DNA of 33,443 nucleotides, from NCBI GenBank assembly GCA_020848745.1, contig JADLHM010000133.1, forward strand, positions 1-33,443, written 5' to 3'. Positions within the stretch are counted from its first letter, which is position 1, and each line of letters starts with the position of its first letter. The stretch comes from Deltaproteobacteria bacterium (GTDB lineage: Bacteria; Desulfobacterota; Binatia; UTPRO1). The translations under genes and the position numbers were made by a program. The notes beneath the pieces were generated by a model. That model worked only from the letters and a program-made list of their open reading frames with translations, was not told the origin of the DNA and did not search any database. This document shows positions 7,135-11,831 of the stretch, piece after piece.

Positions 7135-7211
7135 TCGGCCGCAACGGACGCCTCCGAGCGTTGACAGCGGCACCGCGGTCGCTGCAAATCTGGCCGTACA
7201 GGAGGTTCGCC

Positions 7212-8033
7212 ATGCTCAACCGTCGACTCGCGCTCGTCGTCCCGCTGGTCCTCGTCCTCGCCACACCGGTCGCCGCCTTCGACCTGACCGGCACCTGGAC
7301 GGGCACCCGCAAGTGCAAGTTCTTCGATGCCGGGGTGAGGTCCAAGGTCGACCGCGAAGGCACGGTCGTGATCACCCAGTCCGCCAACTCCGTCGGGTTC
7401 CGGAGCGACATCGGAAGCTCGCACCTCTACCACGGGATCGCCAACTTCGGGACCGAGAAGCCGGACAAGGGCGAGCTCTCGGTACGCCACTGCGACAATC
7501 ACATGGACGCGGCGCCGTTCGACGCGATCGGACGCTTCACGGTGAGCACCAAGCCCGGCAGGGCGAAGGCGACGATCTCCGGCATCAGCATCGTCGCCAA
7601 CGACACCGTCCTGAGTCCGAGCCACGGCACCTGCAAGTGGAAGCTCACCCGCACGACGACCTTCGATTCCGGCGGCGTCTCGACGAACTGCGACATCGTG
7701 CTGTCACGACGCGCCGCCAAGACGGACGTCGCGTATCTGAGCGAGTCCGAGACGAAGCGGCTCCACGACGAGCTCATGGCCTATCGGCTCGCCACGTATC
7801 GCTACGCGTCCCCGAGCACGTCGCCCGGCAGCCATCTCGGCTTCATCATCGACGACGTCGCGCCGAGCCCGGCGATCGCCGCGAGCGGCGATCACGTCGA
7901 CCTCTACGCGTATACGAGCATGGCGGTCGCGGCGCTGCAGACCCAGGCCCGCGAGATCGAGCGCCTGCGCGCGGCGGTGGCGAAGCTCGAGACACGGAGC
8001 GCGGGCAAGCTCCGGACCGGAGCTTCACCCTGA
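7212..8033 (+). CDS. Secreted protein with a C-terminal S74/intramolecular-chaperone-like segment
   Basis: A 273-aa exported protein. ATG 7212 is preceded six bases upstream by AGGAGG (7200-7205). Residues 1-22 are a signal peptide (MLNRRLALVV, a Leu/Val core, then ATPVAA/FD). Residues 23-165 form a Cys-containing domain that begins FDLTGTWTGTRKCKF; I do not recognise it. From about residue 175 the sequence resembles the peptidase S74 chaperone domain of phage tail spikes and bacterial surface proteins. It has SESETKRLHDEL, then YRYASP, GSHLGFIIDDV, GDHVDLYAYTSMAVAALQTQ and a final Leu-heptad helix (REIERLRAAVAKLE). A Ser and Lys five residues apart (SESETK) match the spacing of the S74 self-cleaving dyad. 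The segment is shorter than typical S74 domains, so cleavage may not occur. Its role is unknown; trimerisation of a surface protein is one possibility. Confidence 0.7.
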   Translation: MLNRRLALVVPLVLVLATPVAAFDLTGTWTGTRKCKFFDAGVRSKVDREGTVVITQSANSVGFRSDIGSSHLYHGIANFGTEKPDKGELSVRHCDNHMDAAPFDAIGRFTVSTKPGRAKATISGISIVANDTVLSPSHGTCKWKLTRTTTFDSGGVSTNCDIVLSRRAAKTDVAYLSESETKRLHDELMAYRLATYRYASPSTSPGSHLGFIIDDVAPSPAIAASGDHVDLYAYTSMAVAALQTQAREIERLRAAVAKLETRSAGKLRTGASP

Positions 8034-9195: not shown

Positions 9196-10044
9196 ATGCG
9201 TCCGCGCTGGATCCGCGCCCTCGCCGCCGTCGCCTCGATGGCGGCCGCACCGGCACCGGCCGCGTTCGGCCACGCGCCGCCGGAAGCGATCGAAGCGGCG
9301 GCGCGCGCCGAGGTCGCGCGCCGCCCGGCCGACGCCGACGCGCACCTCGCCGCCGGCCGCATGCATCGCGCCGCGCGGGCCTGGGACGCGGCGCTCGCCG
9401 CCTGCGAGCGCGCCGCGGCGCTCGGCGCCGACCCGACCGTCGTCGCCGTGGCCAAGGGCGAGGTGTACCTCGACGCGGGATGGCCGGGCCTGGCCGAACG
9501 CGAGCTCACGCGGGCGCTCGAGCGAACGCCCGAGGACGTCGGGGCGCGCTACGACCGCGGCCGCGCCCGCATGGCGCTCGGCGATCCCGCCGGCGCGGCG
9601 CAGGATTTCGAACGCGCGATCGCCGGTATGCGTGAGCCGCGTCCCGAGCACGTGTTCGCGTGGCGCGACGCGCGCATCGCGCTCGGCGACCCCGCCGGGG
9701 CGATCCGCGTCCTCGACGCCGGCGTCGCGTACCTCGGCGCGGTACCGTCGCTGCACCTCGCCGCGCTCGACCTCGAGCTCGCCCTCGGGCGCTACCCCGA
9801 CGCGCTCCGCCGCCTCGATGCGCTCCTCGCGATCGGCGCGCAGAGCCCCGCCTGGATCGCGCGGCGGGCCGAGGTGCTCGATCGGCTCGGGCGCCACGCC
9901 GAAGCGCGGCGCGACCGCGCCCGCGCCCTCGCCGTGATCGAGCACCGTCGTCCGGGACGGCGCGGCAGCACGCTCACGACCCTCGCCGCCGAGCTCCGCC
10001 GCGATCTCGCCACCACCGCAGAGCCCCGGGAGGACCACCCATGA
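9196..10044 (+). CDS. Secreted TPR-repeat protein
   Basis: A 282-aa protein with an Ala-rich signal peptide (MRPRWIRALAAVASMAAA, cleavage near AAFG-HA). After it come about six degenerate tetratricopeptide repeats: ADAHLAAGRMHRAARAWDAAL, VAKGEVYLDAGWPGLAERELT, ARYDRGRARMALGDPAGAAQD, AWRDARIALGDPAGAIRVLD and ALDLELALGRYPDALRRLD. They continue to about residue 245. TPR proteins act as binding scaffolds, here in the periplasm or on the envelope. It overlaps the following metallophosphoesterase start by ATGA (10041-10044), so the two products are made together and may interact. The start at 9196 was chosen because the signal peptide begins there; no strong Shine-Dalgarno is visible. Confidence 0.82.
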   Translation: MRPRWIRALAAVASMAAAPAPAAFGHAPPEAIEAAARAEVARRPADADAHLAAGRMHRAARAWDAALAACERAAALGADPTVVAVAKGEVYLDAGWPGLAERELTRALERTPEDVGARYDRGRARMALGDPAGAAQDFERAIAGMREPRPEHVFAWRDARIALGDPAGAIRVLDAGVAYLGAVPSLHLAALDLELALGRYPDALRRLDALLAIGAQSPAWIARRAEVLDRLGRHAEARRDRARALAVIEHRRPGRRGSTLTTLAAELRRDLATTAEPREDHP

Positions 10045-11831
10045 CGCCGCCGGCCTTGCGCCTCGCCGCCCTCGCCACGAGCCTGCTCGCCGCGACCGTC
10101 GCGGACGCCGCGACCATCGTGCGCGGCCCGTATCTCCAGCAGCCGACGCCGGCCGGCATGACCCTGCGCTGGCGCACGGACGTCCCGACCGACAGCCGCG
10201 TGCGCTACGGCGCGGCCCCGGGATCGCTCGGTCTGACCGTAGACGACGCGGCCGTCACGACGGAGCACGTCGTGACCGTGTCGGCGCTGGCGCCCGACAC
10301 CGTCTACTTCTACGCGATCGGGTCCACGAGCGCCGACCTCGAGGGCGACGACGCCGATCACTTCTTTCGCACAACCCCGACCCCCGGCGCGGTGCGCCCC
10401 CTGCGCATCTGGGTCACGGGCGACGGCGGCTACGCCAACGCCGACGGTATGGCCGTGCGGGACGCTTACGCGGCGTACAACGGCGCCGCGCCCACCGACC
10501 TCTGGCTCCTCCTCGGGGACAACGCCTACCCGACCGGCAACGACGCCAACTATCAGGCGGCGCTCTTCGACCTGCACCACGACATGCTGCGGAGCGTCCC
10601 GACGCTGTCCACGTTCGGCAACCACGAGGCCATGGCGGGCAACTCGGCGCTCCAGACCGGTCCCTACTTCACGATGTTCACCTTCCCGACGGCGGGCGAG
10701 GCCGGCGGCGTTCCGTCCGGCTCCGAAGCCTACTTCTCCTACGACTACGGCAACGTGCACTTCGTCGTGCTCGACTCGGAGCACAACTCCAAGGCCTCGA
10801 CGAGCCCGATGATGCTGTGGCTCGAGGCGGATCTGCAGGCGACGACCGCCGACTGGATCATCGCGCTCTGGCACCGCCCCCCCTACAGCAAGGGCCTGCT
10901 GCACGACTCCGACCTCGAGTTCGAGGAGATCACCATGCGCACCAACGTCGTGCCGATGCTCGAGGACTACGGCGTCGACCTCGTGCTCTGCGGGCACAGC
11001 CACTCCTACGAGCGCAGCTACCTGCTCGACGGCCACTACGGGCTCTCCGACACGTTCGAGCTCCCGGTCCACGCTCGCGACGCCGGCGACGGCGATCCGA
11101 GCGGCAACGGCCCCTACCGCAAGCCGAGCCTCGGGCAGAGCCCGCGCAACGGGGCAGTGTACGTCGTCGCCGGCAGCTCGAGCGACGTCCGCACGACGAC
11201 GCTGAACCATCCGGCGCTCCCGGTCGGGCTCCTCGAGCTCGGCTCGCTCGTGCTCGACGTCGACGGCCAGACGCTCACCGGCACGTTCGTGAACGCCGCC
11301 ACGCAGGCGGCGGACCGCTTCCGCATCGTGAAGGGTCCATCCTGTCCGAGCGCGCCGCGGGGCGGCTGCGCGAGCGCCCCGAAAGGCCGGATCGCGCTCA
11401 GGAACGATCCCGTCGACACGAAGGACAAGGCGCAGTGGAAGTGGCAGAACGGCACGCTCGACAGCACGCAGATCGGCATGCCGAGCGGCCAGAGCGACGT
11501 CGCGGTCTGCCTGTACGATCAGAGCGGCAGCCTGTTCGGCGACGCCCTCGGCCACGGCGCCCCGGCGTGGAAGGCCAAGGGCGGCGGCGTGCAGTACGTC
11601 GAGAAGTCCGGGGCGCACGCCGGCATCACGAGCGTGAAGGGCACGTCGGGCACCGGCAAGGGACAGATCCAGGTGAAGGGCGCCGGCGCCTCGCTCGCGC
11701 TGCCGGCCGGCGCGCCGGCGTTCCCGTTGACGGCCCAGCTGATCAACCTCCAGAGCGGAGCGTGCTGGGAGTCGGTGTTCCCGACCGCCAAGGTCAACGA
11801 CGGCGTGAAGCTCTCGGCGAAGCTCCCCTGA
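10041..11831 (+). CDS. Secreted metallophosphoesterase (purple acid phosphatase-like) with a C-terminal shared domain
   Basis: A 596-aa exported enzyme. GGGAGG precedes ATG 10041 by seven bases. A signal peptide (residues 1-23, ends VADAA) is followed by a fibronectin-III-like domain (IVRGPYLQQPTPAGMTLRW...PDTVYFYAIG), as in purple acid phosphatases. The calcineurin-type metallophosphatase domain runs from about 120 to 390 with all metal motifs: GDGGY (~127), GDNAY (~158), GNHE (~193), WHRPPYS (~277) and GHSHSYERS (~317). From C435 to the end is a separate domain with CP...GC, KDKAQWKWQNG, VAVCLYD, GTGKGQIQVKG and ACWE. That tail closely resembles the tail of the propeller protein at 26884-31116. 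It probably releases phosphate from organic phosphoesters outside the cytoplasm; the role of the tail is unknown. Confidence 0.9.
   Translation: MTPPALRLAALATSLLAATVADAATIVRGPYLQQPTPAGMTLRWRTDVPTDSRVRYGAAPGSLGLTVDDAAVTTEHVVTVSALAPDTVYFYAIGSTSADLEGDDADHFFRTTPTPGAVRPLRIWVTGDGGYANADGMAVRDAYAAYNGAAPTDLWLLLGDNAYPTGNDANYQAALFDLHHDMLRSVPTLSTFGNHEAMAGNSALQTGPYFTMFTFPTAGEAGGVPSGSEAYFSYDYGNVHFVVLDSEHNSKASTSPMMLWLEADLQATTADWIIALWHRPPYSKGLLHDSDLEFEEITMRTNVVPMLEDYGVDLVLCGHSHSYERSYLLDGHYGLSDTFELPVHARDAGDGDPSGNGPYRKPSLGQSPRNGAVYVVAGSSSDVRTTTLNHPALPVGLLELGSLVLDVDGQTLTGTFVNAATQAADRFRIVKGPSCPSAPRGGCASAPKGRIALRNDPVDTKDKAQWKWQNGTLDSTQIGMPSGQSDVAVCLYDQSGSLFGDALGHGAPAWKAKGGGVQYVEKSGAHAGITSVKGTSGTGKGQIQVKGAGASLALPAGAPAFPLTAQLINLQSGACWESVFPTAKVNDGVKLSAKLP

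Follow-up and report, generated by a model that had tools for sequence, protein, structure and literature searches.

S74/ICA domains are known to assist long trimeric fibres and a single family of eukaryotic transcription factors. In MYRF the catalytic dyad is S578/K583, and mutation of the serine abolishes cleavage (PMC3742443). The dyad of the phage T5 protein pb1 is S1264/K1269, and here too cleavage is abolished when the serine is mutated (PMC4690869). In phages, an Arg that lies 14 residues upstream of the serine, on the neighbouring fibre chain, senses correct folding (PMC4690869, PMC8326128); this is Arg897 in endoNF (S911) and Arg1250 in T5 (S1264). Cutting of MyRF is reported to be independent of the folding of the upstream stalk (PMC8326128). 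In Bdellovibrio, long trimeric MAT fibres, typically of about 1,000 aa, at the surface end in S74 domains with the motif SDxxxK, and the S782A change in the fibre protein Bd3182 abolishes self-cleavage (PMC10769870).

The protein described here is encoded in a stretch of DNA of 33,443 nucleotides (the window), which is contig C133 of an assembly of 4.88 Mb in 155 contigs. Like the MyRF/MrfA ICA (7dc3), its best fold match, the C-terminal domain has Lys at +5 from the Ser, a conserved Gly and a C-terminal helix. MyRF is a membrane-bound transcription factor of eukaryotes and has a beta-helical stalk, whereas the window protein is small, exported and bacterial, and has no stalk; cutting that does not depend on a stalk is what its architecture would also need. 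Phage endosialidase (3gw6, second in the VIA fold comparison) and T5 pb1 share the domain type and the dyad spacing. Their chaperones follow trimeric beta-fibres with the sensor Arg, whereas the window protein has Phe151 at position -14 and no beta-fibre upstream, and so lacks both marks of a phage tailspike. The Bdellovibrio fibres resemble the family of the window protein in being bacterial and in carrying S74 at the end, but the family members have guessed lengths of 195-597 aa with a median of 327 (a start was guessed for 49 of 56), disulfide-rich domains and the junction C-P-x-S-x4-K. The canonical S74 proteins of the window's class (L157-L186 except L181) have homologous tails, with Ser five residues before Lys in all 29, and fibre-type upstream sequence where inspected by eye, several of them following NTAxG repeats or other beta-rich stretches; they mostly read AQE or AEE where the window protein has IDD.

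We consider it likely, with a probability of roughly 0.7, that this exported protein with a divergent S74/ICA domain trimerises, cuts itself between Leu164 and Ser165 and frees a small disulfide-bonded domain. The features to which the text refers are as follows.

7200..7205, plus strand: Shine-Dalgarno-like AGGAGG, 6 bases 5' of the ATG (read from the sequence)
7212..8033, plus strand: whole gene, ATG start, TGA stop, 273 aa (list of open reading frames)
7212..7277, plus strand: signal peptide, residues 1-22, MLNRRLALVVPLVLVLATPVAA, with an A-x-A-type end (by eye)
7278..7691, plus strand: N-domain, residues 23-160, with Cys 35, 94, 141 and 160 (paralogues, low-confidence model)
7689..7691, plus strand: Cys160, 5 residues N-terminal of Ser165 (alignments)
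7704..8030, plus strand: S74/ICA-type tail, residues 165-273, 11.7 kDa if cleaved (profiles, fold)
7704..7706, plus strand: Ser165, predicted nucleophile (invariant in 56 of 56 proteins; S74 profile position 1)
7719..7721, plus strand: Lys170, predicted general base (invariant in 56 of 56; S74 profile position 6)
7839..7841, plus strand: Gly210 of LGFIIDD, counterpart of the Gly in GxIAQEV (invariant in 56 of 56 and in all 22 rows of alignment A5)
7902..8018, plus strand: long C-terminal helix, residues 231-269, predicted trimeric coiled coil (single-chain AF2 models)

An earlier note on this DNA had read the product as a small exported protein, which agrees with its length and with the signal peptide; it has four cysteines. 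The start of the signal peptide is alike in the congeners L031 and L032, and the predicted mature form (residues 23-273) has a computed mass of 26.9 kDa. Elsewhere in the window, a 723-aa ORF at 9660-11831 on the plus strand looks metallophosphatase-like by eye in its later part (GDGGYAN, GDNAYPTGN, GNHE).

Homology of the tail to S74 domains

Direct searches return little for the window protein. The full-length protein has no S74 match in Pfam and no match in NCBIfam, and a search of the window's own genome with PF13884 finds nothing. The tail alone matches PF13884 with 14.4 bits (E 0.049), under the curated cut-off of 22 bits. Among 58 genomes, its own included, two close orthologues of the whole protein were found, both in the same genus, and the tail by itself (roughly residues 163-265) shares 53-62% identity with the tails of otherwise different proteins from six further genomes. 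Ten such tails were aligned (A1); Peptidase_S74 matches eight of the ten and exceeds the cut-off in two (28.4 and 25.1 bits). Family members over the cut-off include L011 (28.4 bits), L013 (25.1 bits) and L194 (26.2 bits).

A canonical set of S74 domains (A2) had been found through A1, and was therefore exchanged, as a guard against circularity, for a set chosen by Pfam alone. The Pfam S74 model finds domains in 25 of the 148 genomes of the window's class. The 'ind' set holds 29 class domains, from L157-L186 except for L181 (the gene of L011), and the 'strict' set holds the 23 that remain when the A1 matches L159, L160, L161, L162, L166 and L170 are removed; none of the 23 was used in A1 or A2, while the S74 start in the L157-L186 loci was placed with A2. 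A model of these 23 domains gives the window tail 32.0 bits, a score that none of 1000 shuffles reaches (maximum 3.2). By hhalign, the match to the Pfam-chosen class S74 domains has 98.1% probability (E 6.9e-14; reversed control 2.2%).

Viral S74 domains match less well. A model of 42 of them alone gives the window tail 0.6 bits, a score that is attained by 28 of 1000 shuffles; the hhalign probability for viral S74 is only 67%. Searched against PDB sequences, A1 retrieves noise, interferon and coiled coils among it, but no S74 chain; the canonical set A2 does find S74 entries. Given that the viral model is weak and the bacterial models are strong, the link of homology runs through bacterial S74, best through the bridge protein L060 (E 7.5e-16).

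The predicted fold points the same way. The tail was modelled from a 22-row alignment with viral S74 domains, and the AF2 model has a mean pLDDT of 77.8 and a pTM of 0.51. Foldseek against a structure library places three MyRF ICA chains (7dc3) first, with probabilities of 0.93, 0.90 and 0.77 at E 0.068-0.24; all remaining rows have probabilities of 0.06 or below. In VIA, the three best matches are all S74/ICA chaperones, at modest scores below Z 5: 7dc3 (Z 4.8, rmsd 5.7, 99 aligned), 3gw6 (Z 4.5, rmsd 4.7, 88 aligned) and 3gud (Z 4.4, rmsd 4.9, 77 aligned), with the following row at 2.9. In BFVD, phage proteins lead (best E 4e-4), many of them named tail fibre, adsorption or S74. The model is thus consistent with an S74 fold of helix, strand pair and long C-terminal helix, at modest Z of 4.4-4.8.

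A chance likeness, in which an unrelated coiled-coil domain recalls S74 through Ser-x4-Lys and a Leu heptad, would account for a window protein below the Pfam threshold, for coiled-coil families among the weak matches and for the weak match of the viral model. It would not account for a full-length profile alignment that stands against shuffled and reversed controls, for relatives above the Pfam cut-off, for the bridge through L060 or for S74 entries at the head of the fold search, and we regard it as highly improbable. The S74-like C-terminal domain that the earlier note had proposed is borne out by the profiles and by the structure matches. The homology to Peptidase_S74/ICA extends over the whole domain by profile comparison, and because the Pfam cut-off is a threshold of detection, the window protein is filed as a divergent homologue rather than as a member that Pfam recognises. 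On these comparisons of sequence, the tail is a divergent S74/ICA homologue and not a new kind of domain.

The Ser-Lys dyad and selection on the tail

The earlier note had assigned the active site to the serine of SESETK (S177..K182) and had begun the tail at 7734. At the position of S177, the ten tails of A1 have S, T, S, S, G, D, D, G, G and D, and a serine so poorly conserved is not the nucleophile. The Pfam registers place S165 and K170 (SRRAAK) at positions 1 and 6 of the Peptidase_S74 profile, so that the predicted dyad is S165/K170 and the domain begins at Ser165 (7704), 30 bases further 5'.

Conservation was followed in 56 proteins, made up of the ten A1 tails and 46 returned loci that were retrieved by the A1 profile, a set that does not cover all 72 matching genomes of the second phylum described below. 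Only four columns are strictly invariant: the Ser, the Lys at +5, the Gly in LGF and the Tyr in VDLY. The dyad corresponds to S578/K583 of MYRF, to S1264/K1269 of T5 pb1 and to the SDxxxK motif of the Bdellovibrio fibres. In the GxIAQEV motif the Gly is kept throughout; AQE is IDD in the window protein, and this position reads AEE, AED or AQD in many canonical S74 domains too. An Arg at +3 is found in 22 of 29 canonical tails and is absent from the window protein. With IDD in place of AQE or AEE and no Arg at +3, the geometry of the active site may differ in the window protein.

These changed flanks would suit a tail that is a relic of S74 and no longer cleaves, in which the N-domain is held as a permanent trimer for avidity and the Ser-Lys pair is only structural. 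The N-domain, which is predicted at low confidence to be a closed barrel, might also not stay trimeric once cut. Catalytic residues under relaxed constraint are expected to drift, but all 56 proteins keep Ser and Lys unchanged while the neighbours of the pair vary, and a relic of this kind seems unlikely to us.

Whole-gene dN/dS is 0.38, 0.48 and 0.37 for the three pairs of congeners, and in the three congeners it is 0.27-0.32 for the tail versus 0.36-0.60 for the N-domain. The tail is kept by purifying selection. A chance fusion between a secreted host protein and the decayed remains of a phage tail gene would agree with the weak PHROGs matches to tail proteins (best phrog_17524, E 0.0031) and with the existence of paralogues that lack S74 and end about where the tail starts. 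The low tail dN/dS stands against it, as does the occurrence of relatives in another phylum (72 of 377 genomes). In addition, a scan of viral_contigs with A1, made for a phage or prophage context, gave no relative, and the neighbouring genes differ among the three congeners (the window, L073 and L074), and no phage genes were noticed among them. Such a remnant is therefore very improbable. A tblastn search of phage sequences, with a query that carried one extra Arg, gave 15 weak matches in 15 records; the one inspected is an unnamed hypothetical protein.

Cysteines near the serine occur in canonical S74 proteins as well. In L157, L165, L174, L180 and L182, a Cys lies 2 residues before the Ser and a second Cys about 14 residues further upstream, and judging from sequence this pair could possibly form a disulfide hairpin at the cut site. 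In the canonical L173, a Cys lies 4 residues before the Ser.

A 4-Cys domain in place of an 8-Cys module

The earlier note had placed an unrecognised Cys-containing domain ahead of the tail. Pfam indeed names nothing over the N-domain, yet the domain is recognisable as a family of its own, since paralogues that lack S74 are present in the window's own genome (L002-L005) and in relatives. These paralogues end 1-11 aa past the equivalent of C160, so that the tail starts where a complete stand-alone protein ends. The N-domain (residues 23-160) is thus a family of small secreted proteins. L002 and L003 stand in tandem (G000:C110:193581-194557), and the 4-Cys family seems to be expanded in this family of genomes, with six matches in G004. 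The N-domain model has 8 strands at residues 27-147 and barrel-type structure matches (Z about 11) at low confidence. The full-length AF2 model is weak (pLDDT 54.9, pTM 0.37), which keeps the barrel fold tentative; on the model, the N-domain is probably a beta-barrel.

In most relatives the tail follows a different domain. A module with eight cysteines stands directly before the S74 tail and ends in C-P-x-S-x4-K in 51 of the 56 proteins (by regular expression); the expression does not match the window gene, its two congeners, L220 or L230. A Cys lies at -3 in 53 of 56. The other three come from the window's genus: the window protein and its two congeners have a Cys at -5, -4 and -5 and do not read C-P-x-S. 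The profile A7, built from the module only, finds 26 places in the class of G527, among them all 24 S74 places, and the two extra places run off the end of the sequence. Therefore, module and tail travel together in that class. The window's own genome has no A7 match. No named family covers the module in the proteins searched (four in Pfam, two in NCBIfam), and the module has no match among PDB sequences. Some members carry further Cys-rich domains, such as a Kazal domain in L011 (26.4 bits, cut-off 21). A strict lipobox expression is matched by 11 of 56, with guessed starts, and more look lipoprotein-like by eye. In L201, a long low-complexity D-rich linker joins a lipobox-like start to the module, and in L195 a T-rich linker lies between signal sequence and module. 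In L068, L069 and L071 (three genomes, one genus), a gene that is alpha/beta-hydrolase-like by eye adjoins the 8-Cys/S74 gene.

The family reaches well beyond the window's genus. Of the 148 genomes in the window's class, 15 match A1 at 1e-4 and nine of these do so at E <1e-49; the Pfam S74 model detects the gene in only one of the nine (G037). The six other genomes contain more canonical S74 proteins, several on sequences with NTAxG repeats. Many canonical S74 proteins with these repeats, which we take to be YadA-head-like, are found in G067 and G069 (L045, L046, L050-L054), with 10 and 9 PF13884 matches, respectively; an expanded fibre repertoire is possible there. Across the window's phylum, 7 of 395 genomes, its own included, match at 1e-6. 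The class of the L033 genome (Myxococcota bacterium MAG.506) has matches at 1e-10 in 21 of 71 genomes, and its phylum, apparently Myxococcota, in 72 of 377.

In a tree of the tails, which has few columns and many unresolved forks, the window's genus forms one clade (100/98) that is sister to L008 (98/85) and lies inside the larger family. L008 is an 8-Cys/S74 protein from the same family of genomes as the window. The simplest reading of these sequences is that an ancestor of the window's genus exchanged the 8-Cys module for the 4-Cys domain. The window protein does not stand alone: it belongs to a widespread family with an 8-Cys module, as a member in which one domain has been swapped. That S74 on a small protein without a fibre is a novelty, as the earlier note had held, still stands. 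No description of the family was found in the literature searched, a search outside which most subscription journals lie. A widespread family of small disulfide-rich proteins that carry an S74 tail is apparently new, and so, as far as the literature searched shows, is the way in which a stand-alone secreted domain has gained an S74 tail in the window's genus.

Proposed mechanism and meaning

Once the protein is exported, its C-terminal helices would assemble into a trimer, in which Lys170 would activate Ser165 for a cut of the Leu164-Ser165 bond. The products would be a disulfide-bonded N-domain of 15.2 kDa (residues 23-164) and a chaperone of 11.7 kDa (residues 165-273). Gating by a fibre-borne Arg, as in phages, is impossible here, given that no beta-fibre lies upstream. 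The gate may instead be trimerisation alone, as in MyRF, whose reported cutting without need of its stalk makes fibre-free cutting possible, or a disulfide-closed domain 3-5 residues before the scissile bond.

The second kind of gate is suggested by the near-invariant Cys-Pro before the scissile bond: as a hypothesis, closure of the disulfide upstream would set the geometry of the bond. In an extension to the whole family, the proteins would be self-releasing and disulfide-gated, with the Cys-Pro coupling oxidative folding to cutting, such that only correctly oxidised protein is released or left on a lipid anchor. This extension is tentative, and we think it unlikely as it stands.

A fibre-free family that keeps the catalytic pair would split the protease function of S74 domains from the folding of fibres. 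It would provide a natural minimal system, of about 200 aa, in which to study how trimerisation switches on a Ser-Lys pair, and possibly a self-releasing fusion tag. It also means that the Pfam S74 model misses a large subfamily. If the disulfide-gated reading is true, a chaperone of fibre folding would have taken on the role of a checkpoint for small, disulfide-rich domains.
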